A stretch of DNA of 64,000 nt from Pseudomonadota bacterium (GTDB lineage: Bacteria; Pseudomonadota; Gammaproteobacteria; JAKAQQ01). This document shows positions 4,836 through 21,064 of the stretch, piece by piece. Where the stretch lies: the NCBI GenBank assembly GCA_027365475.1, contig DAHXNI010000079.1:1-64000 (forward strand), given 5' to 3'. The translations under genes and the position numbers were made by a program. The notes below the pieces were generated by a model. That model saw nothing but the letters and a program-made list of their open reading frames with translations. It did no database searches and was not told where the DNA came from. Within the stretch, counting starts at the first letter, position 1, and each line of letters opens with the position of its first letter.

Positions 4836-4850
4836 GCCAGCGCATGCGGC

Positions 4851-4892
4851 GATGGAGTTCGCCGAATAATCGCCGCAAGGCTGATGACTCCT
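4851..4892 (+). repeat. 42-bp leader repeat, copy 1 (inverted copy at 20782-20823)
   Basis: GATGGAGTTCGCCGAATAATCGCCGCAAGGCTGATGACTCCT; reverse complement matches 20782-20823 with one mismatch by eye. Confidence 0.93.
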
Positions 4893-4948
4893 GAACGGTA
4901 ACCCATCCGCGGTACGTCACCGTAGCCGCTTCGGGAGATCTACGGTTC

Positions 4949-5893
4949 ATGGTCGGCGATATCATCCTCCAGCAGGTCTTTCAGGTTCTCGTCATCCTAG
5001 CGCTGTCCCCTCTGCTCCAGGGGTTCATTGTCACACTTGAAGCAAAAATAGAGCGGGGGCGGGGACCCTCGATCATCCAGCCTTACCGCGACCTTTACAA
5101 GCTGTTCCATAAAGAGCAGCTGATTCCGCAATCGGCTTCCCTGATTTTCTGGCTAGCTCCTCTGGTCGCCTTCACCGCCATGCTCACGGTTCCGTTGTTG
5201 ATCCCTGTGCTCACCAACTATCCGCTGCCACTATCCGACATGGGCGATATTCTGGGGGGTGGACTGATCCTGACTCTCGGAGGCTTTGCCATTCTTCTTG
5301 CCGGTCTCGACAGCGGGCATCCCTACGGCGGGTTGGGTTCGAGCCGTGAAGTCATGCTCGCGATTCTGGTCGAACCCACCCTGATCATGGTCTTCATCGG
5401 CATCACGCTGCTTGCGCGATCCATGCTGCCCTTTGTGGTCAACCACCTGCTTGTGGCACAACCGGCGGTGTTCTGGAGCCCGGCGCATGTGCTCCTGGTC
5501 GCAGCCTTCCTCATCCTGCTCACCGTCGAAACCGAGCAGCTCCCGATCCACTCCACCACCCACCACGAAATCTACATGATCGGGGAAGCGCGCATCCTTG
5601 AATATTCCGGCCCGCTGCTTGGGTGCCTCCGGTGGGCTTCATGGATGAAGCGGGCCATCCTCTACACCATCTTCATGAATGTCCTGACACTCCCATGGGG
5701 GCTTTCCACGCATGGGACAGGCTGGGGGCTTCTCTTTGCAGCTGTCATGCTCCTTATCAAGTGGGGCATCGTGGGTACCGTCATGGCCGTCATCGACACC
5801 GTTCAGTCGCGCCTGCGCTTTTACCGCTATCAGGAACCACTGGCCCTGTCGTTTCTCCTAGCCATCCTGGCCGTGGTCGCCCACCAGCTCTAG
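4949..5893 (+). CDS. hyfC: Ehr/hydrogenase-4-like membrane subunit HyfC (NuoH family), operon 1
   Basis: 'LLQGFIVTLEAKIERGRGPSIIQPYRDLYKLFHKEQ', multiple TMs, HyfC/NuoH-type. Confidence 0.9.
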   Translation: MVGDIILQQVFQVLVILALSPLLQGFIVTLEAKIERGRGPSIIQPYRDLYKLFHKEQLIPQSASLIFWLAPLVAFTAMLTVPLLIPVLTNYPLPLSDMGDILGGGLILTLGGFAILLAGLDSGHPYGGLGSSREVMLAILVEPTLIMVFIGITLLARSMLPFVVNHLLVAQPAVFWSPAHVLLVAAFLILLTVETEQLPIHSTTHHEIYMIGEARILEYSGPLLGCLRWASWMKRAILYTIFMNVLTLPWGLSTHGTGWGLLFAAVMLLIKWGIVGTVMAVIDTVQSRLRFYRYQEPLALSFLLAILAVVAHQL

Positions 5894-5901
5894 GCACCCT
5901 G

Positions 5902-6582
5902 ATGTCAACCTTCCATCCGAATGGTCTCGCGGCGGCAGTGTTCAGCCTGCTCAGCATCTCGGCTCTGATTCTGTCCTTCGTGATGCTGGCTTCCCACTGG
6001 ATCAAAAACCACATCCTTGCATTCGCAATCCAGTCCTGGGTGATCGCCTTCCTGTCTGCTTTCATCGGGGTGAGCGGACATTACCCGGAACTCATCCTCA
6101 TCGCCTTCCTGACCGCACTTCTGCGCGGCACGTTTCTGCCCTTCCTCCTGATCCGCCTGCTCGACCAGGCGCATCTCGATCGCGAGTTTGCACCGCTGGT
6201 GCAGCCCAGTTCCAGTATGGTCCTGGGTGCGGCGCTTGTGCTGCTCGCCTACACGATGGCACTGCACCTCGGCCCTGGCGCACGCATCCCCGATCCGACC
6301 GCGTTGATGGCACTGACCACCATGCTGGCCATCACGCTGATCGGCTTTCTGATGCTCGTCCTGCGCACCGAGGCACTGAGCCATCTGCTCGGCCTGCTCG
6401 TTATCGAAAACGGGATTTTTCTGGGTTCGCAGATCCTGATGCCCGGCATGCCACTTCTTCTGGAGCTCGTGATCCTCTTCGACCTTCTCATCATCGTCGT
6501 CACATTCGGAATTCTGGTGCGCTATCTCAAAAGAGAAGTCGGCTCGACCGACAGCCGCGTGCTCAGACGGCTGGTGGGCTGA
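5902..6582 (+). CDS. hyfE: HyfE-like membrane subunit, operon 1
   Basis: Hydrophobic; 'LGLLVIENGIFLGSQIL' typical of HyfE/MrpC-like subunits; internal ATG at 5902 preferred over the ORF-track start 5623. Confidence 0.85.
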   Translation: MSTFHPNGLAAAVFSLLSISALILSFVMLASHWIKNHILAFAIQSWVIAFLSAFIGVSGHYPELILIAFLTALLRGTFLPFLLIRLLDQAHLDREFAPLVQPSSSMVLGAALVLLAYTMALHLGPGARIPDPTALMALTTMLAITLIGFLMLVLRTEALSHLLGLLVIENGIFLGSQILMPGMPLLLELVILFDLLIIVVTFGILVRYLKREVGSTDSRVLRRLVG

Positions 6583-6586
6583 AGAC

Positions 6587-8044
6587 ATGCTCTGGAATCT
6601 CGTGGTCATACTCCTCGCGGTCACGGCCCTGGCGTCGGCCGGCTGCTGGCTCACCCCGAATGCCCGCATCGCGGAAGGACTCAATTTCGGTGCGGCCGCC
6701 ATCGACTGCACGCTCGTCGTGATCCTTCTCGCCCGAACACCCGCTCGGGGCATCGAGACCCTCGACGGATACCTTCTGCTGGACCCGCTCGGACTCTGGG
6801 TCATGCTCTGCACCGCGCTTGTCTATCTGCTCGCATCCCTTCACGCGATCGGCTACATGCGCGGCATGCACGAAGAATCTGCGCGCCTCAACCGCTTCTA
6901 TGGACTTTTTTCTGCCTTTGCGCTGGCCTTGTTTCTGGCCCCGCTTCAGAATAACCCAGGACTTTTTTGGATCTCGATCGAACTCACCACCATCGTGAGC
7001 GCCTTTCTGGTCGCATTCCAACGCGCACCGGAAACCATTGAAGCTGCTTGGAAATATGTCATCATCGCCTCCGCCGGGTTGTCGCTCGCGCTTCTCGGAA
7101 CCGTGCTTTTCTATTGGGCTGGAACGTTCGCCGCCGGACCGTCCTACAACATGACCTGGGCCCGGTTCGCCACCCTGGCACCTGCTGTGAATCCAACCTT
7201 GATCCTGCTTGCGTTTCTTCTGGTGCTCACCGGATTCGGAACAAAAGTCGGCCTGGCGCCGATGCACACCTGGTTGCCGGATGCCCACAGCGAAGCACCG
7301 GCACCAGTCTCGGCCCTCCTGTCGGGTGCACTCCTCAACTGTGCCATGCTGGGCGTGGTGCGCTACCTTCTCGTCCTGCGCCAGACCCGGGTCTACCCCT
7401 TGGCACAGACGATCCTGGTCGCGTTTGGCGCCCTGAGCCTCCTGGTTGCCGCGTTGTTCATCACCCGCCAGACACTCATCAAACGTCTGGCGGCCTATTC
7501 GAGCCTCGAGCACATGGGAATTATGGCCATCGGTTTCGGTTTTGGCGCACCGTTCGGGGTGATCGGTGCACTCTACCAGATGCTCAATCATTCGCTCACA
7601 AAATCCGCGGTTTTTTTCGGCGCTGGCAACGCAATGCATGCCTACCACAGCAAACAGATCGCGAAAATCCGGCGCGTGCTCGATTATTTCCCGATGAGCG
7701 GCGCGCTGTGGCTCGCTGCAGCCGTTGCCATCACGGGCGCACCCCCCTTCGGGCTTTTCTGGGGCGAGATCACGCTGTTGCGCGGCGGGATGGCCAGTGC
7801 CAATACTTGGGCGGTGGCCTGGACGGGGGTGTTCCTGATCGTCATTTTCATAGGGTTTCTGAAACACTTCCGGGTCATGTACTTTGGCCGCGAACCCGCT
7901 GAACCGCCGGATACCACACTCCATTGGACCCAAGTCGCCCCACTGGCCCTAGCCGTCGGCACCGTTCTGGTGCTCGGCCTTTGGTGGCCCCATCCGATTT
8001 GGGTCTATCTCAGCGCCATCGCGCGACACTTCGAGCCCACCTAA
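6587..8044 (+). CDS. hyfF: Antiporter-like proton-translocating subunit HyfF, operon 1
   Basis: 'FGTKVGLAPMHTWLPDAHSEAPAPVSALLSGALLNCAML' and 'YSSLEHMGIMAIGFGFG'; NuoL/M/N family. Confidence 0.92.
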   Translation: MLWNLVVILLAVTALASAGCWLTPNARIAEGLNFGAAAIDCTLVVILLARTPARGIETLDGYLLLDPLGLWVMLCTALVYLLASLHAIGYMRGMHEESARLNRFYGLFSAFALALFLAPLQNNPGLFWISIELTTIVSAFLVAFQRAPETIEAAWKYVIIASAGLSLALLGTVLFYWAGTFAAGPSYNMTWARFATLAPAVNPTLILLAFLLVLTGFGTKVGLAPMHTWLPDAHSEAPAPVSALLSGALLNCAMLGVVRYLLVLRQTRVYPLAQTILVAFGALSLLVAALFITRQTLIKRLAAYSSLEHMGIMAIGFGFGAPFGVIGALYQMLNHSLTKSAVFFGAGNAMHAYHSKQIAKIRRVLDYFPMSGALWLAAAVAITGAPPFGLFWGEITLLRGGMASANTWAVAWTGVFLIVIFIGFLKHFRVMYFGREPAEPPDTTLHWTQVAPLALAVGTVLVLGLWWPHPIWVYLSAIARHFEPT

Positions 8045-9549
8045 TGCAACCCTGCACCATGCGCGTCATTCCTAAAGGCGGATTGCCTCTGGCACTCGAA
8101 GAGCTCCTGCCTGCCCATGGAGGAGATCCCCATCAGCGTTTACGGATGGCCTACGCCCGGAAAACCCGTGAGGGAGGACTCGAAGTCCTCTACTGCCTGA
8201 GCCAGGGGACAGGAATCCCCTATCTCATGCTGCGGGTGAGTCCAGACCAGAATCGGCTCCCGTCTCTCGCGAACCGCTTTCCGGCCATGGGCTGGTATGA
8301 GCGTGAAATGCATGATCTCTTTGGCCTCGAGTTCGAAGGTCACCCTGAGCCCTACCCTCTGGTCCTCCACGAAGGAACTGCTCCAGTCCATCCACTGCTC
8401 ACCGGTCCGGTCACCCAGCCCCTTCGGCTCTCGGTCGAGCCCCCCATCGTCCCTGCAATGATCGGGCCTGAAATCCAGCGACTGCCGTTCGGTCCCGTGC
8501 GCGCGGATGTCGTTGAATCGGCACAGTTTCTGTTTTTCTACATCGGCGAGGGTATTCTCCACTATCATCCGCGCCTGTTCTACAAACATCGGGGCATGGA
8601 ACAGCGTTTCGAAGGCGCCTCGCTTATGACGGGCGTCATCCTGTCGGAGCGGGTGTCTGGAACGGATTCGATCGCGCACGCTCTGGCCTATTGCCAGGCC
8701 TGCGAGGCCGCGCTCGGACGCCGCCCCCCCTCCCGCGCCAACCTGATCCGGGTCATTCTCGCCGAACTTGAGCGGCTGACCAATCATCTGCATTTTTTCG
8801 CCGAGCTCGCCAAGATGACGACGCTCAAGGTAGCGGATGCCCAGGGCCATTGGCTTGAGGAACAGGCGAAGCAGATCAATGGGACCCTCACCGGTAGCCG
8901 ATTTCTGCGCGGCATCTTGTGCGTGGGGGGACTCCGGCACGATCTCGATCTCTCGGGACTCCACGCCACGCTCAAGTCGCTTGAACGCGACACACTCAGC
9001 TATCTTGGGAAACTGGAAGAGACCCGGAGCTTTCTCGACCGGCTGATCGGCACGGGACGCCTCACACGCGAGGTCGCATTCGATCAGGGTGCAACCGGCC
9101 CCATCGAACGGGCCAGCGGAGTGGATCGGGACCTCAGGCGCGATCTCTGCTATGCCGGCTACAACACATTGCGCTTTGCGATCCCGAAGCAATCCGCAGG
9201 CGATGCCTGGGCTCGCGCCTGCATCCGCCGGGACGAAATCCGGGAATCCCTGGCCATGATCCGCCAATGTCTCGAACAAATCGAGCCGGGATCCATTCGG
9301 ACCGATCGGATGAATGCGGATCCGGATCCCCTGGCTGAAGGTCTCGGCTGGGCAGAGGGAACACGGGGGGGGCTTTATTATGCGATCCACTACGACCCGG
9401 AGCGGGAGGTCTTCGACCGGGTCAAGATCAAAGATCCATCCTTTTCCAACTGGCGCGTCTTTCCTTTCACGGTGCAAGACAGCAATCTCATGGATTACGC
9501 CATCAACGAATCGAGTTTCGGCTTGTCGATCGCCGGTGCGGACCGGTAA
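8044..9549 (+). CDS. hyfG: NuoC-NuoD-fusion large subunit HyfG-like, lacking [NiFe] ligands, operon 1
   Basis: N-terminal NuoC-like 'WYEREMHDLFGLEFEGHPEPYPLVLHE'; NuoD-like 'ERVSGTDSIAHALAYCQACEAALGRRPPSRANLIRVILAELERLTNHLHF'. RxCGxC is replaced by RVSGTDS and there is no C-terminal DPCxxC. Start ATG overlaps the hyfF stop. Confidence 0.92.
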   Translation: MQPCTMRVIPKGGLPLALEELLPAHGGDPHQRLRMAYARKTREGGLEVLYCLSQGTGIPYLMLRVSPDQNRLPSLANRFPAMGWYEREMHDLFGLEFEGHPEPYPLVLHEGTAPVHPLLTGPVTQPLRLSVEPPIVPAMIGPEIQRLPFGPVRADVVESAQFLFFYIGEGILHYHPRLFYKHRGMEQRFEGASLMTGVILSERVSGTDSIAHALAYCQACEAALGRRPPSRANLIRVILAELERLTNHLHFFAELAKMTTLKVADAQGHWLEEQAKQINGTLTGSRFLRGILCVGGLRHDLDLSGLHATLKSLERDTLSYLGKLEETRSFLDRLIGTGRLTREVAFDQGATGPIERASGVDRDLRRDLCYAGYNTLRFAIPKQSAGDAWARACIRRDEIRESLAMIRQCLEQIEPGSIRTDRMNADPDPLAEGLGWAEGTRGGLYYAIHYDPEREVFDRVKIKDPSFSNWRVFPFTVQDSNLMDYAINESSFGLSIAGADR

Positions 9550-9563
9550 GAGGTGATACTCCG

Positions 9564-10370
9564 ATGACCAACTGGGCATGGTTTGGATTGCGCGCGGGCC
9601 GTCTGACCTCGCGCTGGCCCGAGCGTCCGGGCTCCGATGGACAGTCGGGCATCTTGGGCATGCCCCGCTTCCATCCCGAGCGCTGCACATCCGGATGCAG
9701 TGACTGCGTATCGGCCTGTCCCTCAGGTGCGATCACCAAGAATCCCGATGGTGAAACGGGGATCGATTATGCGCGTTGCGTCACCTGCCAACGCTGTACC
9801 GAAGTCTGTCCGACCGGAGCCTTTGAGACCAGCACCGACTGGGCGTTTGCCGTCCGGGATCGGGCCGATCTCGTTTTCGGTGTGGTAGCAGATGCACCAT
9901 CTGATCCGCGCGGGCAGCCCTCCCGCCGGGTGCCGCACGCCCTGAAACGAAGTCTCCACATCCGCCACGTCGATGCCGGCTCATGCAACGGCTGCGAATC
10001 GGAACTCGAGGCGCTGCTGAATCCGCTCTACAACCTCCATCGCCTCGGAATCTTTTTTACCCCTTCCCCACGTTTCGCTGATCTCCTCCTGGTCACAGGA
10101 CCCGTCACCATCGCCATGCACGAGCCACTGCTCCGCACCTATGAAGCCATGCCTGAGCCCCGTTTTGTCATGGCGACGGGGACCTGTGCCACCGGCGGCG
10201 GGATCGCCGGTGGCGGCTACGCCTGCCATCAGGGCCTCGCAGGCCTCCTGCCGATCGACCTCTGGTTGCCGGGTTGTCCGCCCAACCCCGCTGCCATCAT
10301 GGATGCCTTGCTGGTTCTGCTCGAGAGACGGCCCGCGCGCGTCAACCGCGGGCACCTCGAGGTATCCTGA
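9564..10370 (+). CDS. hyfI: Ferredoxin-NuoB fusion subunit (HyfI-like), operon 1
   Basis: Two [4Fe-4S] motifs (CTSGCSDCVSACP, CVTCQRCTEVCP) followed by N2-type ligands CNGCE...GTCATGG...PGCPPNP. Confidence 0.92.
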   Translation: MTNWAWFGLRAGRLTSRWPERPGSDGQSGILGMPRFHPERCTSGCSDCVSACPSGAITKNPDGETGIDYARCVTCQRCTEVCPTGAFETSTDWAFAVRDRADLVFGVVADAPSDPRGQPSRRVPHALKRSLHIRHVDAGSCNGCESELEALLNPLYNLHRLGIFFTPSPRFADLLLVTGPVTIAMHEPLLRTYEAMPEPRFVMATGTCATGGGIAGGGYACHQGLAGLLPIDLWLPGCPPNPAAIMDALLVLLERRPARVNRGHLEVS

Positions 10371-10371
10371 G

Positions 10372-12369
10372 ATGTCCCCTCTGGATGGGTTTCTCGCCTC
10401 ATCCCTTCTCTGGGTGGCCGCGCTCGTGCTCGATCTGGCCAGAAGACCACGTGCCGCACGGGGATGCCTCGTAACAGGCGTGATCCTCGCGGCGTGGGCA
10501 ACCGCGGCGAGCCTACCCCATGGCACCGGAGACCGGATCATCGCCTGGATCGGCCCGTGGCCGATCGGCTGGCGCGCGGATCCGGCAGGCTTGTGGCTCA
10601 TGCTTCCGGCCTGGCTTCCGGCCGGATTTGCAGTCCTTTTAGGAGGACGCGAAGGCCGGCGCGGCTTTGCGTCTGGCGCGGCGCTTGCGCTCCTCGGAGC
10701 GCTCGGGGTGCTTGGCCTCCAAAATGGCCCGGGGTTCCTGATCGCTTGGGAAATCATGGGTTTTGGCGGGGCGATGTTGCTCCTTTCGGAACGGCAGACA
10801 CGGGAATCCGGACGCGATACCTTCTTCATGCTGGCTCTGCTCGAAACCGGTGCCATCGCCTTACTCTTCGCGATTCTCCTGCTCGGCCCAAGCTGGCAGG
10901 TTGCCACCTATGGTCAGGAATGGGCCAGATTGGGATCGGGCATGGGTTTTTTTCTGGCGCTCCTCTGGGTCGCGGGTTGCGGGGCCAAACTCGGCCTTTT
11001 GCCCTATTACGAGTGGTACCCGGGCGCCTACAGTTCCGGCAGTGGGGCGAGTGGGGCTCTCCTCTCGGGACTCCTCCTCAACATCGCCTATTTCGCACTG
11101 GGCCGCGCTCTGCTGGATTGGCTTGGGGTCACCCCCTGGCTCGCGGATCTTGGAATCGTGCTGCTCGCACTCGGCATTGTGACCGCCGTTCTGACCGGCC
11201 TCTATGCCTTTCAACAGGATGATTGGCCGCGACTGCTTGCCTTCTCGTCAGCGGAGAATGCGGCGATCGCGGTGGCGGCCCTCGGCGCCGCACTGATTTT
11301 TCGAGGCTATGGGCACAATCAGCTTGCAGCGCTGGCCTGGATCGTGGGCCTCATCCAGCTCATGGGACACAGCCTGGCCAAAGGTGCCCTGTTCTTCTCT
11401 GCGGATGCCGCCCATCATCTCACGGGATCCGATCAGATCCGTCCGGATGCGCTCTTCCGAAGAGCGCCCTGGACCCTTGGGGTGGGGGCCCTCTGCGCCG
11501 TGATGAGCCTCGCGGCCCTGCCACCCACTATCGGCTTCGTCAGCGAGTGGTATCTATTCCAGACACTCTTCCACGATTTTGTGATCTCCGGGGCGGGGGC
11601 GCGGATCGCTCTCACCCTGGCGGGCGCGGGACTTGCCCTCACTGCAGCCATTGCACTCGCCACCATGGTCAAGCTGGCCGGAGTGGGTCTCCTCGGACTG
11701 CCCGAGCTGGAAAAGGATCAGGGCTTATCGGGACCCATGCAATCGCTCTCCTGGACCGTCCGAATCGCGATTCTCGTGACCGGGCTCGCCGTTCTCGTTT
11801 TCGCGGTGAGTCTCGTCAGTTGGCTGCCTCTCATGGCGTCGACCGCAAGACCGATCCTCGGTGGGAAATCCATCACACTCGTGCACCACTGGCTCCTGAT
11901 CCCATTGAGTCCGAGTTTCGCCTTCATCTCGCCCGCCAAGCTCGTGATCGTCTGGCCGCTTCTGGCACTCATCCCTTTTGCCCTCCTCCTCTCGGGAATG
12001 CGCCATTTCAAGGTCCGACGGACACCCCTCTGGTGTGGTGGCGACGAGAGTGCAGCTCATGCCGGCGCCACGACGGCCTTTGCATTCTCGAATGCCCTGC
12101 GCGTTTTCTACAGTTTCGTCTATCGCCCCCGCAATAACGTGCGCCGCACTTTCGGCGATCGGCCCTACTTTCTCAAAGAGTTGAGCTTCGATTACAGCCA
12201 CGCACCCGTTTTCGGTCCGCTGCTGTTCCAGCCGGCGACAGCCAGTGTACGCTGGCTGGCCGACCGGTTGCGTTTCCTGCAAAACGGACGGTTGAGCTCC
12301 TATCTGGCCTATATCGGTCTCATACTCCTCACCATATTTGCGCTCGTGCTTCTCTGGTCTGCTCCGTAG
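10372..12369 (+). CDS. hyfB: Antiporter-like subunit HyfB, operon 1
   Basis: NuoL-family TMs; 'GAKLGLLPYYEWYPGAYSSGSGASGALLSGLLLNIAYFALGRALLDWLGVTPWLADLG'. Start ATG just after the hyfI stop. Confidence 0.88.
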   Translation: MSPLDGFLASSLLWVAALVLDLARRPRAARGCLVTGVILAAWATAASLPHGTGDRIIAWIGPWPIGWRADPAGLWLMLPAWLPAGFAVLLGGREGRRGFASGAALALLGALGVLGLQNGPGFLIAWEIMGFGGAMLLLSERQTRESGRDTFFMLALLETGAIALLFAILLLGPSWQVATYGQEWARLGSGMGFFLALLWVAGCGAKLGLLPYYEWYPGAYSSGSGASGALLSGLLLNIAYFALGRALLDWLGVTPWLADLGIVLLALGIVTAVLTGLYAFQQDDWPRLLAFSSAENAAIAVAALGAALIFRGYGHNQLAALAWIVGLIQLMGHSLAKGALFFSADAAHHLTGSDQIRPDALFRRAPWTLGVGALCAVMSLAALPPTIGFVSEWYLFQTLFHDFVISGAGARIALTLAGAGLALTAAIALATMVKLAGVGLLGLPELEKDQGLSGPMQSLSWTVRIAILVTGLAVLVFAVSLVSWLPLMASTARPILGGKSITLVHHWLLIPLSPSFAFISPAKLVIVWPLLALIPFALLLSGMRHFKVRRTPLWCGGDESAAHAGATTAFAFSNALRVFYSFVYRPRNNVRRTFGDRPYFLKELSFDYSHAPVFGPLLFQPATASVRWLADRLRFLQNGRLSSYLAYIGLILLTIFALVLLWSAP

Positions 12370-12622
12370 CCCATCTTGCGCCATGCGCCCAAGGACGCGT
12401 TCATTTTCGCCCCTGATCGGGCGATGTGAGGCAACCTGCTGCGCATGCCCACGGGATTCCCCTTGACCATACTTCGTTCAGCCCGACCGCGACGATTCCT
12501 CACAACCCCATCGGCGGGTGCCGGCCACCTGCGGCATCCGCACCCGGGCAGCCCGCCGGAACACGCCCGTGACTGGGGTTTGACCCGCTGGGTCGTCGTA
12601 GGTACGCGCCCCAGCAAGATGC

Positions 12623-14731
12623 TCATCCCCTTCCGGCTGCCACGATGACCAACAGCAAGACCATTGCCAACAAAATGTACCCGGCGTAAGTGTTCATCCG
12701 TCCCTTGTGCATCCGCGCCAGTAGCGTTGCTATCGCCATGGCACCACCGATGATCGGACTCAACACTGCCCGATCGGAGATGTTGGCGATCACCCCGCGG
12801 TAGCTACGAGTCAACACAAAGGCACCCTGTCGCTCTTCTTCCACCTCGATATGTGGATGGAAAAATCCAGCAAAGATCACCCGTACCGGAGCGACAAAGG
12901 TGGTCGCGGTGTAGGTCATCTCCGGGCGCAGTCGGGCCAGTCCGGCATCCCACAGGATATTGCGGCTGCTGCGTCGACGCCTCAGTCCGCGGGCCACCAA
13001 CCATACCCCACCCAGCATCAGGGCCAGTACCACGCCGGTCAGTGCCGCGGACATGGCGTAGACCACCGGCGCCGTGCTGTCTAGATGCATCACAATCAGG
13101 CTGCGCACCGGCATGAAGACAGCGCCGACATGGGCACCGATGGCATCCAGCGCCTGCTGCACGGCGCGAGGGATGCGCGATGTGTTATGGAAAAATGCCG
13201 GCACCAGAGTGGCTGTGGGGTCAGCCCCCACCAAAGGTGCGGCCAATCGTCCCAGCACTGGAATGATGACTGTAGCGGCAAGCCCTAGCAGGAGGCTCAA
13301 CAGCGTCAATATCCCCATGGGAATCACCACACTGTGCGGCGCTCGACGAGCCCCAGCCGCTTGCGCTGTCCGTGGCAGGCCCATGAGGGCACTGCCACTG
13401 AGCATGATAAAGCAGGTGAGCGCCAAACCGGATGTGAGGGCCAGTACGGCACCTGAAATCGCGAAAGCAATCCGTACCGGCACAACCGGAATTTCCACCA
13501 CCCGCAACAAGGACTCCAGCAGAAGCCACTCGCTCACGAAGCCATTGAAAGGAGGCAGCGCAGCAATGGCGAAAGCTCCCGCTAGAAAAAATCCACCCAG
13601 AACCGGCAACCTCCGCATGAGCCCTCCTAGCTGGTCGAGATTGTGGGTGCCCGTCGCCACTTCGATGCCACCAGCACCTAGGAAAAGCAGCGTTTTGAAG
13701 GTGGAATGATTGATCATGTGATAGAGACCCGCGACCATGGATATCCCGCCCAGCAGCGGATGTCCATATGCGGCGAAGGTGAGGCCGGCGCCAATGCCCG
13801 CCGTAGCGATCCCCATGTTCTCCACCGAACTTTGGGCCAAGAGGCGTTTCATGTCACGTTCCACGAGGGCGTAGAGAATTCCGATGAGCGCCGTCAACGC
13901 ACCGCTGGCGAGGATAACCAATCCGAGATCGGGTTGGTGCAAGGCAATCGGTGCATCGATGCGCAGGAAGGCATAGAGACCAAGATTAAGGGTCGCTCCG
14001 GATAAGATGGGCGATATAGAGCGGGGTGCCGTGCCGTGGGCGGCAGGCAGCCAAACATTGAGGGGAACGATACCGGCCTTCATGCCAAAACCGAAAAATG
14101 CCAGAAGGCCGGTAATTAGCAGTAACATCGGCGACAGATGCGGAATCGCAGCGGCAATGCCGTTGAGCTGTGTGGTACCAGCCGCCCCAGCGAGCAGCAG
14201 TAGGCTGGCGAGTCCCACAAGACTGCCCAATTCCGAAAGGGCCATGGTCAGCAATCCCGCTGCAACCGGTTTACTGTGCCGGGTTTCGAATGTAATCAAA
14301 CCCCAAATGGCGAGGGCCGCCAACTCCCAGGAGAAAATAAAGGAAACGATGGTAGAGGCAGAAAAAAAACCGATCATGCTAACCAGAGTGAGCATGACGA
14401 TGGCCAAGAAAAGCGTTCGGCGCCCGGTGCTAAAGACAGTGGCATCTCGCGTCACGAAAGGGAGGGCAGTAGCGAAAACCACAGCGGTGATCAAGATCAA
14501 AAGACCGCCCAAGGGCGTTTGCACGAAATCGAAGGTACCGATGATGGGCAAAGCCCAGCGGATCAAGCTTTGCTCCACTGGCCCGCCGACGGCGAGGGCA
14601 CCTTGCACAATCATCAGCACACAACCCGCTGTCATGGTGATCCAAGCGAAGATCAGCGGGATTCGGCGTCCGGGCAAGAGGGCCAGTAGCGGACCACTGG
14701 CAAAGAGGAGATAGGCAAGGACATAAAGCAT
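12623..14731 (-). CDS. hyfB: Antiporter-like subunit HyfB, operon 2
   Basis: 'FGMKAGIVPLNVWLPAAHGTAPRSISPILSGATLNLGLYAF', 'AQSSVENMGIATAGIGAGL'. ATG at 14731 overlaps the hyfI stop. Confidence 0.9.
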   Translation of the reverse strand: MLYVLAYLLFASGPLLALLPGRRIPLIFAWITMTAGCVLMIVQGALAVGGPVEQSLIRWALPIIGTFDFVQTPLGGLLILITAVVFATALPFVTRDATVFSTGRRTLFLAIVMLTLVSMIGFFSASTIVSFIFSWELAALAIWGLITFETRHSKPVAAGLLTMALSELGSLVGLASLLLLAGAAGTTQLNGIAAAIPHLSPMLLLITGLLAFFGFGMKAGIVPLNVWLPAAHGTAPRSISPILSGATLNLGLYAFLRIDAPIALHQPDLGLVILASGALTALIGILYALVERDMKRLLAQSSVENMGIATAGIGAGLTFAAYGHPLLGGISMVAGLYHMINHSTFKTLLFLGAGGIEVATGTHNLDQLGGLMRRLPVLGGFFLAGAFAIAALPPFNGFVSEWLLLESLLRVVEIPVVPVRIAFAISGAVLALTSGLALTCFIMLSGSALMGLPRTAQAAGARRAPHSVVIPMGILTLLSLLLGLAATVIIPVLGRLAAPLVGADPTATLVPAFFHNTSRIPRAVQQALDAIGAHVGAVFMPVRSLIVMHLDSTAPVVYAMSAALTGVVLALMLGGVWLVARGLRRRRSSRNILWDAGLARLRPEMTYTATTFVAPVRVIFAGFFHPHIEVEEERQGAFVLTRSYRGVIANISDRAVLSPIIGGAMAIATLLARMHKGRMNTYAGYILLAMVLLLVIVAAGRG

Positions 14732-15456
14732 CAGGGCAGCTCCTCCGCAGTCGTGCACTGGGTGCGGCCGACCACTGCCAGTAGACCATGGAGAATCGCA
14801 AGAGGCGGAGGCGGACAACCGGGAATCCAGAGATCCACTGGAACGATTTTCTGGAGCCCACCCACACAGGCAAAATTCTCGCCGAAGATACCACCGTTAA
14901 TGGCACACACGCCCATGCCTACGACCCGTTTGGGGTGGGGCATGGCGGAATACGCCTTGCGGACAGCTGTGCACATGGCATTGGTGATGGGTCCCGCAAC
15001 GAGCAGAACATCTGCGTCGCGGGGGCTTGCTGTGATGAAGATGCCGAGGCGGTGTAGGTTGTAGACAGGTGCATCCAAAAGACGCGCTTCATTGATGCAG
15101 GCCCCGCAAGCGCCGGCATCGATATAGCGAACATGCAAGGACCGCCGGAAACGGTAGCCCAGAGGAGACAAAGCGGTGCCGGCATTCACAGTCCAAGCGA
15201 CGTCATCCTCCCAGGGTAGGGCGTGAGGGCCCTGGCGGCAACGCTGGCAGTGGATGCAGTGCGTGAGGTCGACCGACACGCCAGTCTCTACCGGATGCAA
15301 CGCACCGGTAGGACACAGTTGCGTTGTGGCATTGCTGGACGCGTTCGAGGCCGAACGTGGCCGCCCTGGAGTGATCCCGGGACTTTGTTCTTTCGCAGAT
15401 GGCCACGAAGTCGTCTTGATGCCGCGCTTCAGTCCGAAGTATGGCCAAAAGCTCAT
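14731..15456 (-). CDS. hyfI: Partly degenerate ferredoxin-NuoB fusion (HyfI-like), operon 2
   Basis: N2 ligands CGAC...GVCAINGG...PGCPPPP retained; ferredoxin domain keeps only LCPTGAL and CIHCQRC. Confidence 0.9.
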   Translation of the reverse strand: MSFWPYFGLKRGIKTTSWPSAKEQSPGITPGRPRSASNASSNATTQLCPTGALHPVETGVSVDLTHCIHCQRCRQGPHALPWEDDVAWTVNAGTALSPLGYRFRRSLHVRYIDAGACGACINEARLLDAPVYNLHRLGIFITASPRDADVLLVAGPITNAMCTAVRKAYSAMPHPKRVVGMGVCAINGGIFGENFACVGGLQKIVPVDLWIPGCPPPPLAILHGLLAVVGRTQCTTAEELP

Positions 15457-17042
15457 TAGCGATCATTCTCCGCGACTGAAAGACCCCAGGTCGCCAGGAT
15501 GATAGGAAAGTCCTGGAAAGCCGCGTTTTCCACGGCCCGCTCGAAAGCGTGCCAGTTGCGGAAACCAGGCGTTCCCAGACGCAGTCGCAGCACCATACCG
15601 GCAGCGTCGCAGTGTACCCAGTGGAAGGTCGCCCCTGAGGGCGCCTCCACCCAAGCCAGTGCACGCCCTTCGAACGTTGGGCAGGGCGTGTGTACAGGCC
15701 CGGCCGAGATCTGGTGCAGAGTCTTCAGGATCAGCTCTGCGCTGATGTGAATCTCACTGAAGAAGATTCGCAGACGCGCATAGCCGTCGCCCTCCTGGGC
15801 GATGGGTACCGTTGGCGCCAGGGTCGCGTATGCCCCGTAGGGCAGGGTCAGGCGCAGATCGATGGCACGCCCCGATGCGCGAGCAATGGGGCCCACCACC
15901 CCATAGGACTGCGCCAGCTCAGGGCTCAAAGTGCCCATCTCCTCGATACGGTCGAGAAAGCTGGAACTATTCTTCAGTAAATGCTCCAGCTCGTGCAGAC
16001 GCGCGTCGAGGCTCGGCAGCGTTTCGGCCAGGAGATTCTGGCGCCATGGATCAAGGTCGTGATGCAGACCACCGGGCGTGAGCACCCCAAAGAAGTAACG
16101 ATGCCCGCAGAGTCTGGCACTGAGCCGCAGCAGGTCTTCAACGATATCTTGGGCCATGGCTTTGGCCACAGCCAGTGCAGTGGAGCCAGAGATTTCGGCG
16201 ATATTCGCGGCATGATGGCGAATGCGCTCTAGTTCAGCGAAGATGAGGCGTAGATCCTGGGCACGGGCTGGCACTTTGCAGCCACCGATACGCTCCACTG
16301 CCTGGCAATAGGCCCAAGCATGGGCAAAGGCTGCTGCTCCAGAAAAACGCTCGACCAGCAGCAGGGCACGATCCAAGGTTTGTCCCTCGGCAATCTTCTC
16401 CACTCCCCGGTATTTGTAAAAGAGCCGCGTGTGCAAGTAACGGATCTGCTCACCCGGTGTTTCTAGCATCCACAAACCGGATTCGTGAAAGTCGCCCCAC
16501 ACGGGCCCGACGGGGAACACGATGGCACCCTCTTCCCGCAAAATTTGCGGTGGGGACCATTCGGTGTCGGAGTCCTTCTGCACCTTCGGGTGGTGCAGAC
16601 CGTCGAAACTGTGACGCATGGGGGCAACGCCCTCCGGCCAGTTGTCGTCATGGAGGACGAAGTCACCGAGGAAGGGGTGGCCAGTGAAACGCAGGCCAAA
16701 TAAATCCTCGGCTTCGCGCTCATGCCAATCGGCTGCATGCACCGTCTCGCTGATGGCCGGCAGCTCTTCCCCCGGCTGTACCCGGATCTGGATCTCCAGC
16801 AAACATCCGTTACGAGGCAGATAAAAGAAATAATAGACCGCAAGACAAGCATCTACCGCGCTTTCTTCCTCTTCCACCAGCAGAGTCGCGAATTCCGCCT
16901 GCCAATCGCGGACCAAGGCAGCAGTCAACTCAGGGAGGCGGGATGCCTGAATTTGGAGTTGCAACCACTGCGCAGCGACAGCTTGGCTACTAATCCCGGT
17001 CTGCACCCCCAGCCAGTCCTGAATTTGAGTGCAGGTGCTCAT
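15456..17042 (-). CDS. hyfG: NuoC-NuoD-fusion large subunit HyfG-like, lacking [NiFe] ligands, operon 2
   Basis: 'DWHEREAEDLFGLRFTGHPFLGDFVLHDD', 'VERFSGAAAFAHAWAYCQAVERIGG...LRLIFAELERIRHH'; no CxxC pairs at either [NiFe] position. Confidence 0.92.
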   Translation of the reverse strand: MSTCTQIQDWLGVQTGISSQAVAAQWLQLQIQASRLPELTAALVRDWQAEFATLLVEEEESAVDACLAVYYFFYLPRNGCLLEIQIRVQPGEELPAISETVHAADWHEREAEDLFGLRFTGHPFLGDFVLHDDNWPEGVAPMRHSFDGLHHPKVQKDSDTEWSPPQILREEGAIVFPVGPVWGDFHESGLWMLETPGEQIRYLHTRLFYKYRGVEKIAEGQTLDRALLLVERFSGAAAFAHAWAYCQAVERIGGCKVPARAQDLRLIFAELERIRHHAANIAEISGSTALAVAKAMAQDIVEDLLRLSARLCGHRYFFGVLTPGGLHHDLDPWRQNLLAETLPSLDARLHELEHLLKNSSSFLDRIEEMGTLSPELAQSYGVVGPIARASGRAIDLRLTLPYGAYATLAPTVPIAQEGDGYARLRIFFSEIHISAELILKTLHQISAGPVHTPCPTFEGRALAWVEAPSGATFHWVHCDAAGMVLRLRLGTPGFRNWHAFERAVENAAFQDFPIILATWGLSVAENDR

Positions 17043-18520
17043 CCGTGGACCTCCAGCAGGCCTGCCGCCTGATGTACCAGTTGTGCCAGCTGCGGCGGCA
17101 GATAAATGCCGAAGATGACAACGGGAAGGAAGGCTATGGACAAGGCGATCAGGCTACTCCAGGGAACCCTGACTTTCGACCAGGAGCTGCCCTCCGCTGC
17201 CGCAGAGGGTTCGCCAAAGGCGATGCGCGAAACCTGGTAGACCAGAGCAATAAAGGCGAGGACGATGAAAACGGTGAGCAGTCCGGTCGGCACATACTGG
17301 CCTGAAGCGTAACCTCTGGCCAAGATCTCGTATTCCGACAGAAAGAGGGCGAAGGGCGGTGCCCCGGCAATAGCCAGCGTACTCACCAGCAGCGCCCAGC
17401 CCACGGCTGGGGATCGGCTGATGAGTCCTCGCACTCGCATAATCTCTTGGGTGCCGAAGACAACGCCCGCCAATCCCGCTGCGTAAAAACAAAAGGGCTT
17501 GACAAAACTGTGGGCGAAAAGCTGATAGACCATGCCCTGTTCATGGATCGCTGCCCCTAACCCGCAGGCAGTCAGGATAATGCCCATGTGCTCGATGGTG
17601 GAGTAGCCGAACATACGCTTGAAATCATGCACCTGCAGGAGCATAAAGGCGGCACTACCAACGGTGATGAGTCCCACCGTCATGTACCAGGCACCTGGAT
17701 CGTGTACGCCAGGGTTGGCGGTCAGCGCCGGATAAATGCGCAGCAGCATGTACAGTGCGGCGCCCGTTTCCACACCCGAAAGAACAGCGCAGACCGACGC
17801 CGGCGCCTGGCTATGAGCATCGGGCAGCCAAGTATGCATGGGCACGAGCCCGGCCTTGGCACCGAAACCGATGAGCCAGAGCACAAAGGCGAGCAACAAC
17901 AGAGGTGCCGGGATCCGTGGAGCCGCCGTGATAAGCCCCTGCCAAGTAGGCGGCTGACCAACGGCGTGGGTACCGTAATAGAGCATGAGCACGCCGAGAA
18001 GGGCAATCATCGCACCCATGCTGGTCAGCATCACATACTTCCAGGCCGCCTCCAGTGCCTCGGGACGATCCTCATAAGCTACCAGAAAAGCCGAGAACAC
18101 CGTCGTCAGCTCAATGGCGATCCACATCAGCGCAAAATTGGCTACGACAGGCACCGCTAATATCACCAGAGCAAAAATATTCATCAGCGGAAAATATTGA
18201 CGGAAGCGCGGTGGCGCTTCATCGGGATGTTTCTGTCGGCGAGCTTGGAGATAGCCGATGGCATAGAGCGATGAGGTAAAATACACAAAGCCCACCGGTA
18301 ACAGATAAAGTGCACCGAGTGCATCCAGAACAAAGAGACCGTGGCCACCCGTCAGTGGCCCCCCGCTCTCCACTTGCAGCGCCGCCAACACAGTGAGGAT
18401 CAGGGTCACGGCGGCCGTCAACAGGGTCAGCAAGGGGGCTGCCTTCTGGATGAGTAACGTGCTCACCGCGCCTGCAAGAGGGATCAGCAGGATCAGTGCT
18501 GGCAACCCATCAACGTTCAT
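17039..18520 (-). CDS. hyfF: Antiporter-like subunit HyfF, operon 2
   Basis: 'FGAKAGLVPMHTWLPDAHSQAPASVCAVLSGVETGAALYMLLRIYP', 'GYSTIEHMGIILTACGLG'. Confidence 0.92.
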   Translation of the reverse strand: MNVDGLPALILLIPLAGAVSTLLIQKAAPLLTLLTAAVTLILTVLAALQVESGGPLTGGHGLFVLDALGALYLLPVGFVYFTSSLYAIGYLQARRQKHPDEAPPRFRQYFPLMNIFALVILAVPVVANFALMWIAIELTTVFSAFLVAYEDRPEALEAAWKYVMLTSMGAMIALLGVLMLYYGTHAVGQPPTWQGLITAAPRIPAPLLLLAFVLWLIGFGAKAGLVPMHTWLPDAHSQAPASVCAVLSGVETGAALYMLLRIYPALTANPGVHDPGAWYMTVGLITVGSAAFMLLQVHDFKRMFGYSTIEHMGIILTACGLGAAIHEQGMVYQLFAHSFVKPFCFYAAGLAGVVFGTQEIMRVRGLISRSPAVGWALLVSTLAIAGAPPFALFLSEYEILARGYASGQYVPTGLLTVFIVLAFIALVYQVSRIAFGEPSAAAEGSSWSKVRVPWSSLIALSIAFLPVVIFGIYLPPQLAQLVHQAAGLLEVHG

Positions 18521-19190
18521 GAAGGCTGTCTAGGGCGCCGGCAAGGGTGGATCCGGTCACCCGGCGAATGTTGCGGATCAGCAGACCGATGACCAAGGCG
18601 AGAATGGGTACATCCACCGCTACCGCAATCTCAACGATCACTGTGAGGTTGTGGACAATGGCGATGGATCCGAAAAATGCACCGTTCTCCATGATCAACA
18701 GCCCCATGAGCTGGGCGACGCTCTCGCGCCGCAACGCCACAGTAAAGGCACCCCACAGCACCATGACCATCCCGGCGGGCAGATTGATGTGTGCAAAAGG
18801 CACCCCACTCGCAAAAATAGGCAACGTGGGCACCATGGCAAACCAGGTCACAAGTGCCAGGACTGACGCCACCAGAACCGATACCGGGATGTCCAGAGCC
18901 TGATCCACTTCGCGACACCCGTATACCTCTTCGCCGGCTGCCCAGCGCAAAACCCATGGTACGGCGAGGACCTTGGAGACGACGGTAATCAGCGCCACCC
19001 AGAACAAACTATAAATATGCAGATCGACCGCCAACACCAGCGCCGAAGCAGCTAGCGCGACGGACTGCCACATGAAAAAGCGCAAGGAAGCGAGCATTTG
19101 CCGCGCAACCATCACTCCGAGACCAAGGACGATGAAGAGTGCGGCGATGGAACCATCGATGCTCAGGGCAACGACGTGGTCGGCGCCCAT
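18510..19190 (-). CDS. hyfE: HyfE-like membrane subunit, operon 2
   Basis: 'LMGLLIMENGAFFGSIAIVHNLTVIVEIAVAVDV'. Confidence 0.87.
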   Translation of the reverse strand: MGADHVVALSIDGSIAALFIVLGLGVMVARQMLASLRFFMWQSVALAASALVLAVDLHIYSLFWVALITVVSKVLAVPWVLRWAAGEEVYGCREVDQALDIPVSVLVASVLALVTWFAMVPTLPIFASGVPFAHINLPAGMVMVLWGAFTVALRRESVAQLMGLLIMENGAFFGSIAIVHNLTVIVEIAVAVDVPILALVIGLLIRNIRRVTGSTLAGALDSLHER

Positions 19191-20152
19191 CAGGAAATCC
19201 CCACCAGACGCACGCCGACCGCGAATAGGCAGATGACGAAGGCGACTGCTAGAAACTCGGGAATGCGAAAGAGTCGCAATTTAGCGAGGTTAGTTTCGAC
19301 AAGCGCGAGCACGACCACAAAGATCAATAGTTTCAGCAATACCCAGCACACGGCCGCCAGCACGGCTGCCCACTGCGTGTTCTGAGCAAGACCCCAAGGC
19401 GTTACCAGTACATTAACGAAAACCATGGCGAGGACCATGAGCTTCATCGCCCCGCCCCATTTCATGAGCGCCGCGCTGGTTCCGGAATACTCGATCCCCT
19501 GGGAGTGGCTGATCATAGCGATCTCAACTTTGCCAGCCGGACTATCCACTGGAATCCGACCCTCATCCGCCAAAATGAGCAGAAAAAAGGCAAGAATCAC
19601 CATGAGGTGCGCTGGTTGCAGCATGCTCGCCCACGACGTCGCCCAAGTGGCGGTCACCACGTAGGGAATGGTGCTGTTGGCCACGTAGGAGACGGCGAAA
19701 AATACCATGATGAAAACAGGTTCGGCCAAAAACCCTACCATATGCTTGCGGCTGGCACCCATCGCTGCGTAAACGTTGCCCGTATCCATTCCACCCAGCG
19801 CGACAAAAAATCCTGAGATGGCCATCAGAAACCCAACCGCTACCATATCCCCCATGAAGGCGAAGAATAGGGGGTAAGCGGTCAGCGCCGGGATCAGCAG
19901 CACCACAAAGAGCGGCATCACGAAGGCGACGATGGGCGTCATGCGAAAGACCCAGGTGGACTCCTCGGAGATCACCTCGTCCTTGATGAAGAGCTTTCCG
20001 ATATCCCGGTAGACCTGCCAAATGCTTGGGCCACATTTACCTTGGGCAATCTCCTCTAGGCGATGCAGCACACCCTCGAGGAGGGGTGCGAAGAGCAGCA
20101 GAAAAGCCATCTGCACAAGATTCAGTGCGAAACGCGTCCATAGGGGCGTCAT
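19190..20152 (-). CDS. hyfC: HyfC (NuoH family) membrane subunit, operon 2
   Basis: 'LLEGVLHRLEEIAQGKCGPSIWQVYRDIGKLFIKDEVISEESTWVFRMTPIVAFVMPLFVVLLIPALTAYPL', 'EGRIPVDSPAGKVEIAMISHSQGIEYSG'. Confidence 0.9.
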   Translation of the reverse strand: MTPLWTRFALNLVQMAFLLLFAPLLEGVLHRLEEIAQGKCGPSIWQVYRDIGKLFIKDEVISEESTWVFRMTPIVAFVMPLFVVLLIPALTAYPLFFAFMGDMVAVGFLMAISGFFVALGGMDTGNVYAAMGASRKHMVGFLAEPVFIMVFFAVSYVANSTIPYVVTATWATSWASMLQPAHLMVILAFFLLILADEGRIPVDSPAGKVEIAMISHSQGIEYSGTSAALMKWGGAMKLMVLAMVFVNVLVTPWGLAQNTQWAAVLAAVCWVLLKLLIFVVVLALVETNLAKLRLFRIPEFLAVAFVICLFAVGVRLVGIS

Positions 20153-20723
20153 GTGAAGCCGACCTCAAATCCTGGTAACGCTAAGACTTCGCAAACTCCT
20201 CTCTGACGCAGCATCCTTTTCCAGCGCACACCCCACACCGAGCTGCCAAGAATCAATCTATGACCCACTGGCATCAGAGTTGCCTGAATCCAGAAAATTG
20301 CCGGTTGAGTCACCCAGTGATGGTTCACGGCAAACGACAACATCAACTTGGCCAGCAGTAGGATGCCGATGAAGATGGTCAGCAACGTGACCTGACCCAG
20401 AATCAGGATCAACCACCCGCTCTCGATACCCGCCAGGTTTGAGAGCGACAGAGGCAAACTCGTCAGGATGGGGGGCAAAAGCGGAACCATGCGCATGGTA
20501 ATGGCGGGTGGGGCATGCCAATAGACCCAGAAAGCGGATCAAGGTACCACCTGTTCTTTAGGGAAGAACTGGAACAGGTCTCAGTACAGCCGGGAAGCGG
20601 TGCGGACCCGCGCCCTCGCTTGGTACTTTCTGCGATGAGGACGGTGCAGAACTGAAGCAGGTAAAGCAACCCCCGTCTGGCGAGAATTTGGCAGACTGGC
20701 CCGCACACCGCTCCACTCACCAT
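20149..20723 (-). pseudogene. Decayed operon-1-like hyfC paralogue (frameshift, nonsense codon, internal deletion)
   Basis: Minus-strand frames give 'MVSGAVCGPVCQIL...LLYLLQFCTVLIAESTKRGRG', then 'Y*DLFQFFPKEQVVP' (cf. YRDLYKLFHKEQLIP), then 'MVPLLPPILTSLPLSLSNL...TIFIGILLLAKLMLSFAVNHHWVTQPAIFW' (cf. MVFIGITLLARSMLPFVVNHLLVAQPAVFW in 4949-5893). About 34 codons are missing. Confidence 0.9.
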
Positions 20724-20781
20724 GAACCGCTGACCCCGCATGGCGGCGAATATTCTTCACCGCGGATGGCATCAAGATTCT

Positions 20782-20823
20782 AGGAGTCATTAGCCTTGCG
20801 GCGATTATTCGGCGAACTCCATC
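20782..20823 (-). repeat. 42-bp leader repeat, copy 2
   Basis: AGGAGTCATTAGCCTTGCGGCGATTATTCGGCGAACTCCATC is the reverse complement of 4851-4892 with one mismatch. Confidence 0.93.
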
Positions 20824-20835
20824 TCCGTGACGGAC

Positions 20836-20871: not shown

Positions 20872-21021
20872 CCCTACATCCTCCTCAACACCGCTTATTT
20901 CGTTCTGGGCCGAGCACTGCTGAACGGGCTCGGGGTCACCCCCTGGCTCGCGGATCTTGGAATCGTGCTGCTTGCACTCGGCATCGCGACAGCCGTCCTG
21001 ACCGGGCTCTACACCTTTCAA
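20872..21021 (+). pseudogene. Internal fragment of operon-1 hyfB
   Basis: 'LLNTAYFVLGRALLNGLGVTPWLADLGIVLLALGIATAVLTGLYTFQ' is near-identical in DNA and protein to 11071-11220 of hyfB. Confidence 0.92.
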
Positions 21022-21064
21022 CCGCTAAAGTGGATCGCGATCATCAGCTCGTCAAGAACGCTAT

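Follow-up and report, generated by a model that had tools for sequence, protein, structure and literature searches.

Two diverged hydrogenase-related (Ehr) operons without [NiFe] ligands belong to a clade linked to fluoride riboswitches

Results

Two convergent operons in the window

The window, a 64,000-nucleotide stretch of contig DAHXNI010000079.1 from a gammaproteobacterium (assembly GCA_027365475.1), contains two complete operons of the gene order C-E-F-G-I-B, op1 on the forward strand (4949-12369) and op2 on the reverse strand (20152-12623). The operons are convergent and 253 bp separate the ends of their B genes (12.37-12.62 kb; Table 1), so the gene coordinates bear out the tail-to-tail arrangement described in an earlier, sequence-only reading of this DNA. 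The proteins of op1 and op2 share 23-42 % identity, and the G subunits, at 37 %, agree with the same reading that the two modules are diverged from each other. This low identity and their separate clades rule out that op2 is a recent tandem duplicate of op1.

Table 1 Features of the op1/op2 locus (positions in the window)
Feature	Position	Strand	Description
Fluoride riboswitch aptamer RF01734, op1 leader	4839..4900	+	Rfam 48.6 bits, E 2.1e-10; own model 62.6 bits
op1 C	4949..5893	+	HyfC/NuoH-like membrane anchor; LPIHS motif (type-1) replaces PVD/PFD
op1 E	5902..6582	+	HyfE-like, NuoK-like end
op1 F	6587..8044	+	antiporter-like, HyfF family; PF00361 173 bits
op1 G	8044..9549	+	NuoC+NuoD-like fused large subunit, without [NiFe] ligands
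op1 I	9564..10370	+	two 4Fe-4S ferredoxin motifs fused to NuoB-like subunit; all four proximal-cluster Cys
op1 B	10372..12369	+	antiporter-like, HyfB family
op2 B	12623..14731	-	antiporter-like, HyfB family
op2 I	14731..15456	-	fused ferredoxin domain, ligands of one 4Fe-4S cluster; proximal-cluster Cys complete
op2 G	15456..17042	-	NuoC+NuoD-like fusion without [NiFe] ligands
op2 F	17039..18520	-	antiporter-like, HyfF family
op2 E	18510..19190	-	HyfE-like
op2 C	19190..20152	-	HyfC/NuoH-like
Decayed partial op1 C copy, between second riboswitch and op2	20248..20729	-	stops, deletion
Second fluoride riboswitch, copy of op1 leader	20774..20835	-	Rfam 38.1 bits, E 5.7e-7
Decayed op1 B copy fragment	20879..21022	+	blastn 87.5 % over 144 bp to op1 B

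Subunits and ligands

Among solved structures, G is closest to that of HycE from formate hydrogenlyase (E 1.2e-92). At the positions of the HycE ligands C241, C244, C531 and C534, op1 G has S, D, S and G (RVSGTDS...FGLSIAGA) and op2 G has S, A, S and E (RFSGAAA...WGLSVAEN) in the alignment. Cysteines masked by misalignment are ruled out, as the same columns hold Cys in HycE, HyfG and the archaeal enzyme of the same alignment. Both G proteins terminate at the DR that precedes the cleaved tail of true hydrogenases, and they therefore have neither the four Cys ligands nor the cleavable C-terminal tail of group 4 [NiFe] hydrogenases and formate hydrogenlyase. The alignment that the sequence-only reading had proposed as a check thus places no cysteine at any ligand position, and with four of four lost in both proteins its claim that neither large subunit can bind [NiFe] was confirmed. 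The absence of [NiFe] from both complexes is strongly supported. Both operons have the features of energy-converting hydrogenase-related (Ehr) complexes: the two CxxC [NiFe] motifs are absent from the large subunit (SDSG and SASE), and peripheral and membrane subunits resembling those of complex I and group 4 hydrogenases are encoded in one operon. The Tyr and His of the NuoD quinone site are also absent from both G subunits in the alignment, DY being SG/S and the His of GPxH being replaced.

In both operons I carries a HyfH-like ferredoxin domain as an N-terminal fusion, contrary to the earlier statement that HyfH is lacking. In op1 and its relatives this domain retains the ligands of two 4Fe-4S clusters; op2 and its relatives retain the CP cysteine from the first motif and cysteines 1-3 from the second, which corresponds to one cluster. 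All four proximal-cluster cysteines are present in I of op1 and op2 and in every I subunit of types 1 and 3 that was examined (types as defined below); some members of the type-2 clade have Asn, Asp, His, Gln or Phe in place of the fourth. In the antiporter-like B and F subunits of both operons the channel residues typical of proton-pumping complexes are retained (TM5 Glu, TM7 Lys, the K342-equivalent Lys in the TM11 region and TM12 Glu), with Asn or Gly at the TM8 Lys position, which is consistent with the proposal that the modules pump ions. Judged from these residues, both complexes seem to retain the full electron path to G as well as the ion channels; the catalytic metal site is gone. The C subunit of type 1 has LPIHS where the other types carry PVD.

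Host genome

The host genome (2.48 Mb, 94 % complete) encodes a third Ehr operon outside the window (L007), with the order B-C-E-F-G-I and an I subunit without the fused ferredoxin domain; the host carries three such operons and not two, as had been thought. The G subunits of these three operons are the only PF00374 matches genome-wide. The earlier observation that the window has no hyp maturation genes extends to the genome, in which HypD had no match at this completeness. An ordinary complete NADH complex I is encoded elsewhere (L008), and the NADH-oxidising NuoE/F/G module was found only there and in neither operon, in keeping with its reported absence from the window. No formate dehydrogenase gene lies within or beside op1 or op2, which rules out an adjoining formate partner of the kind found in formate hydrogenlyase. 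CrcB/Fluc was not found in the host; two CLC proteins had no obvious fluoride signature when inspected by eye.

Phylogeny and gene neighbourhoods

In a tree of 125 G sequences, whose hydrogenase references were limited to those of E. coli and an archaeal CCCC row, all Ehr rows formed one group with support of 100, apart from HycE/HyfG and NuoD. Neither operon falls with either of these, as the tree suggested in the sequence-only reading was to decide, and the assignment of both to non-hydrogenase, complex I-like Ehr assemblies holds. Op1 belongs to type 1 (16 rows, support 100), op2 to type 2 (29 rows, support 100) and the third operon to a third group, type 3 (36 rows, support 99). A clade of 48 rows (support 100) unites types 1 and 2 and also includes three long single branches. 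The relatives are acid-mine and Acidithiobacillus genomes, and the type-2 members include, by name, many non-acidophile lineages.

Type 1 was present in 16 of 29 Acidithiobacillaceae genomes, and all 16 operons continue into crcB, encoding a fluoride channel, and DUF190, followed mostly by a zinc-ribbon/HEAT protein and in several cases by DUF211. In nine of the 16, type 2 lies in tandem 9-10 kb further on, and none of the 29 genomes had type 2 without type 1. JOPF132 also has a tandem pair (L049), and in another genome (G048) the pair is convergent and an insertion splits crcB, with one half at each contig end. Altogether, 12 genomes are known to contain both types, and in all 12 the two adjoin; three type-2 subclades are represented among these pairs. 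This adjacency likely reflects joint use and does not establish a single physical complex.

Fluoride riboswitches

Both aptamers in Table 1 score above the Rfam gathering cut-off for RF01734 (34 bits) and have the conserved aptamer with its covarying pseudoknot; they are the only fluoride riboswitches in the host genome. The sequence-only reading, which had called the role of such complexes poorly defined, had overlooked these switches ahead of both operons. The op1 riboswitch ends 48 bp ahead of the op1 start codon. In the predicted fold of the op1 leader, ACUCC of the pseudoknot pairs with the ribosome site GGGAG, a pairing that shuffled sequences match in strength (z -1.0). The second riboswitch is on the op2 strand; its leader is 83 % identical to that of op1 over 89 bp. 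Control of op2 is less sure, because this switch lies 0.6 kb upstream, behind a decayed gene, and has a non-standard (broken) pair in P1.

Relatives were searched with Rfam and then with a model made from 21 aptamers, and matches were assigned to operon starts. The model was built partly from these loci, but most matches also exceeded the Rfam cut-off. In these searches a coding-strand switch was found at the start of type-1 operons in 27 of 27 genomes with an available leader, and 23 of 28 type-2 operons had one. Four of the five switchless type-2 operons are Acidithiobacillus op2 located downstream of a switched type-1 block in the same direction. None of 39 operons with the B-C-E-F-G-I order had a fluoride riboswitch, nor did E. 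coli hyf and hyc. A single change on the G tree accounts for the distribution of the switch (37 rows with it, 43 without). The aptamers covary: both partners have changed in five base pairs, including three pseudoknot pairs (shuffled mean 1.7). The other genomes of the host's family have at most one fluoride riboswitch each, in six of them at op1; in one (G007) it precedes a crcB gene, and in one (G001), where the contig stops inside op1, no fluoride riboswitch was found. In a random sample of 399 Pseudomonadota genomes no Ehr was found downstream of the best 30 fluoride riboswitches, which precede mostly CrcB or transporters, indicating that the link is specific to this clade and not general. 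A fluoride link of one Ehr clade is thus strongly supported.

Origin of op2

Most identities between the six op2 proteins and their Acidithiobacillus op2 counterparts fall within 64-86 %, compared with 49-70 % for op1, 42-55 % for the third operon, 42-66 % for housekeeping proteins and 39-74 % for most complex I subunits (NuoB 88-90 %). Op2 was found in none of the eight family relatives searched, several of whose genomes are incomplete. The higher identity of op2 and its absence from these relatives suggest that op2 was acquired from an Acidithiobacillus-like donor. The decayed C copy, with in-frame stops, matches op1 C (tblastn, E 4.7e-20). Op2 likely landed beside op1 and subsequently came under a copy of the op1 leader, an order of events that we infer.

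Discussion

Ehr complexes were described by Coppi (2005) and Marreiros (2013), as cited in PMC4378227, and their role has been reported as unknown (PMC4378227; PMC10284858; PMC6349859). Op1 and op2 share with them complex I-like subunits, a large subunit without [NiFe] ligands and ion-channel subunits. They differ in that their clade has the C-E-F-G-I-B order, the fusion of ferredoxin to I, fluoride riboswitches and two diverged, paired members. Respiratory complex I (NDH-1) has the same fold for G, I, C, E, B and F, but op1 and op2 have no NuoE/F/G and lack the DY and His of the NuoD quinone site. E. coli hydrogenase-4 (hyf) and hydrogenase-3/formate hydrogenlyase (hyc) have homologous C, E, F, G, I and B subunits (25-38 % identity), whereas they possess four Cys ligands, a protease-cleaved tail and a separate HyfH/HycF, and no fluoride riboswitch. 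As far as our literature search reached, it is new that these operons are Ehr without [NiFe], that the fluoride link sets one Ehr clade apart from its sisters, and that two Ehr types are paired.

Formate hydrogenlyase-type genes are known from fluoride-riboswitch regulons (Baker 2012, as cited in PMC11139923 and PMC8004769), where, as far as these citing reviews describe them, a Hyf/Hyc-like operon likewise stands behind a crcB-motif riboswitch. The reviews, which count 'formate hydrogen lyase' among the common fluoride-riboswitch genes, explain them by formate metabolism in fermentation (PMC8004769; PMC11139923). Such a reading of op1 and op2 as formate hydrogenlyase or group 4 hydrogenase, which is the usual annotation, could also draw on HycE as the nearest solved structure of G, but it is refuted by the missing [NiFe] ligands. 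Neither operon can yield a [NiFe] enzyme or contains a formate dehydrogenase gene, the genome has no HypD match and no other [NiFe] subunit, and the E. coli hyf and hyc operons are not fluoride-switched; we regard this annotation as almost certainly wrong here.

Under acidic conditions fluoride crosses into the cell as HF and lowers the cytoplasmic pH, and cells rely on the proton gradient to export it; among fluoride-riboswitch classes, Na+/H+ antiporters rank second in frequency (PMC11139923). The fluoride RNA switch before both operons and in their whole Ehr branch suggests that this clade helps microbes, many of them acid-loving, to survive fluoride. On balance we consider it probable that op1 and op2 encode fluoride-induced, redox-driven ion pumps acting against HF stress, within a fluoride-switched Ehr clade; the induction by fluoride, the direction of pumping, the donor, the acceptor and the reason for the pairing are those that we infer. 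HF that enters the cell at low pH would release H+ and F- inside, and F- together with Mg2+ would fold the riboswitch, so that the op1 ribosome site is freed. A low-potential donor would pass electrons to the ferredoxin domain of I (two clusters in op1, one in op2) and to the proximal cluster, and from there they would enter the pocket of G that formerly held [NiFe] and reach an acceptor, most likely the quinone pool. Quinone is here a guess from the family and not from residues, since those of the NuoD quinone site are absent. The energy would drive the antiporter-like B and F channels, expelling H+ and restoring the proton gradient for fluoride export. We counted for such a pump the crcB of the Acidithiobacillaceae type-1 operons, the retained channel residues and the proximal cysteines, and against it the missing canonical NuoD Tyr/His, the weak ribosome-site pairing (z -1.0), the distance of the op2 switch and the inward proton gradient of a strong acidophile, which could run the complex backwards.

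One alternative is reverse electron transport, in which the large inward proton gradient of an acidophile would drive electrons uphill under fluoride stress, e.g. from quinol to ferredoxin, for repair or biosynthesis. The ferredoxin-type entry domain in op1, the acid-mine and Acidithiobacillus relatives and a similar uphill role proposed for the A. ferrooxidans cluster (PMC2621215) are all in line with it; however, many type-2 members are by name from non-acidophile lineages and uphill use would admit more protons during HF stress, and we find it unlikely. A redox-silent, Mrp-like cation/proton antiporter with peripheral subunits of structural function only appears quite unlikely as well: the proximal-cluster cysteines persist in op2 as well as in every examined I subunit of types 1 and 3, and the type-1 ferredoxin clusters are complete, even though B and F are Mrp-related with full channel residues and Na+/H+ antiporters rank second among the riboswitch classes (PMC11139923). 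Very unlikely, in our view, is that the complex itself moves or handles fluoride beyond correcting pH, as a redox-driven fluoride exporter or a fluoride-tolerant module. The host has its sole fluoride riboswitches at these operons and no detected CrcB/Fluc, and its CLC proteins are without an obvious fluoride signature, but the Acidithiobacillus relatives already have a fluoride exporter, crcB, in the same operon and no fluoride-binding site was recognised in the complex.

Beyond the ion pump that we favour, it is a tentative and rather doubtful idea that this Ehr clade is a dedicated fluoride-defence machine, the paired types being the main switched defence of the host and the clade being the 'formate hydrogenlyase' of the fluoride regulons. 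Electron flow would then be coupled to removal of fluoride or HF, in a host without a Fluc channel.

A sensor of one ion at one Ehr clade, absent from its sisters, offers a direct and cheap test of Ehr role, and the 'formate hydrogenlyase' entry in lists of fluoride-riboswitch genes needs rereading, at least for this clade. Bioleaching with Acidithiobacillus is limited by fluoride, and an answer would therefore have practical use.

Six-gene Hyf-like clusters, hyfBCEFGI, have been described in A. ferrooxidans (AFE2149-54; PMC2621215; PMC7735108), where the catalytic subunit was already classed as non-hydrogenase by HydDB (PMC7735108), and in A. caldus (PMC3826726). These papers differ from the present case in that they do not mention fluoride and report no paired second type in A. 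ferrooxidans. Their gene order, with B first, suggests that some of the published clusters are of type 3, which has no fluoride riboswitch. A role in CO2 uptake or carbon fixation is ruled out for op1 and op2, which are not of type 3 and in whose host genome RuBisCO was not found. In Sulfuricella (L107) the neighbours of type-3 Ehr include SulP, a carbonic-anhydrase-like gene, CbbR and RuBisCO; in A. ferruginosus (L171) they include cbbQ/cbbO/cbbR.

Results and discussion

In part of the type-2 clade (the clade of the second window operon), Asn, Asp, His, Gln or Phe takes the place of the fourth proximal 4Fe-4S cluster cysteine in the NuoB-like I subunit, and in the same subunits an Asp precedes the first cysteine (for example at loci L057, L052, L058 and L078). 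In every type-1 member examined, the NuoH-like membrane anchor C carries the motif LPIHS, in which His replaces the conserved loop Asp. This replacement may alter the coupling path.

Between type-1 and type-2 operons, a zinc-ribbon/HEAT protein and a DUF211 protein are conserved next to DUF190 and the fluoride channel gene crcB (L060, L066, L089 and L193-L198), and both may be part of the fluoride response. In genome G048 an insertion divides crcB in two, and a transposase gene lies where the contig stops; when contigs C4 and C34 are joined through the two crcB halves, the operons of the two types are convergent. No CrcB/Fluc was found when the whole host genome was searched, and the selectivity motifs of its two CLC proteins (L211, L212) are altered. 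At two Acidithiobacillus loci (L173, L175), a gene resembling, by eye, cyclopropane-fatty-acid synthase lies downstream of the type-2 B gene.

The host has a third Ehr operon, which is of type 3 and has neither a ferredoxin domain nor a fluoride riboswitch; RNase P RNA lies directly downstream of it. The type-3 operon of Sulfuricella adjoins SulP, a carbonic-anhydrase-like gene, CbbR and RuBisCO, and that of A. ferruginosus adjoins cbbQ/cbbO/cbbR. These neighbours hint at a possible role of type-3 Ehr in carbon fixation.

Locations of the features discussed
Feature	Genome	Location
Type-1 C gene with LPIHS	Host, window	4949-5893
Third Ehr operon, B-C-E-F-G-I	Host	L007:7708-15099
RNase P RNA	Host	L007:15208-15572
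crcB half	G048, C4	L125 end
crcB half	G048, C34	L129 end
Type-3 operon and neighbours	Sulfuricella	L107:2556-18723
Type-3 operon and neighbours	A. ferruginosus	L171/L172
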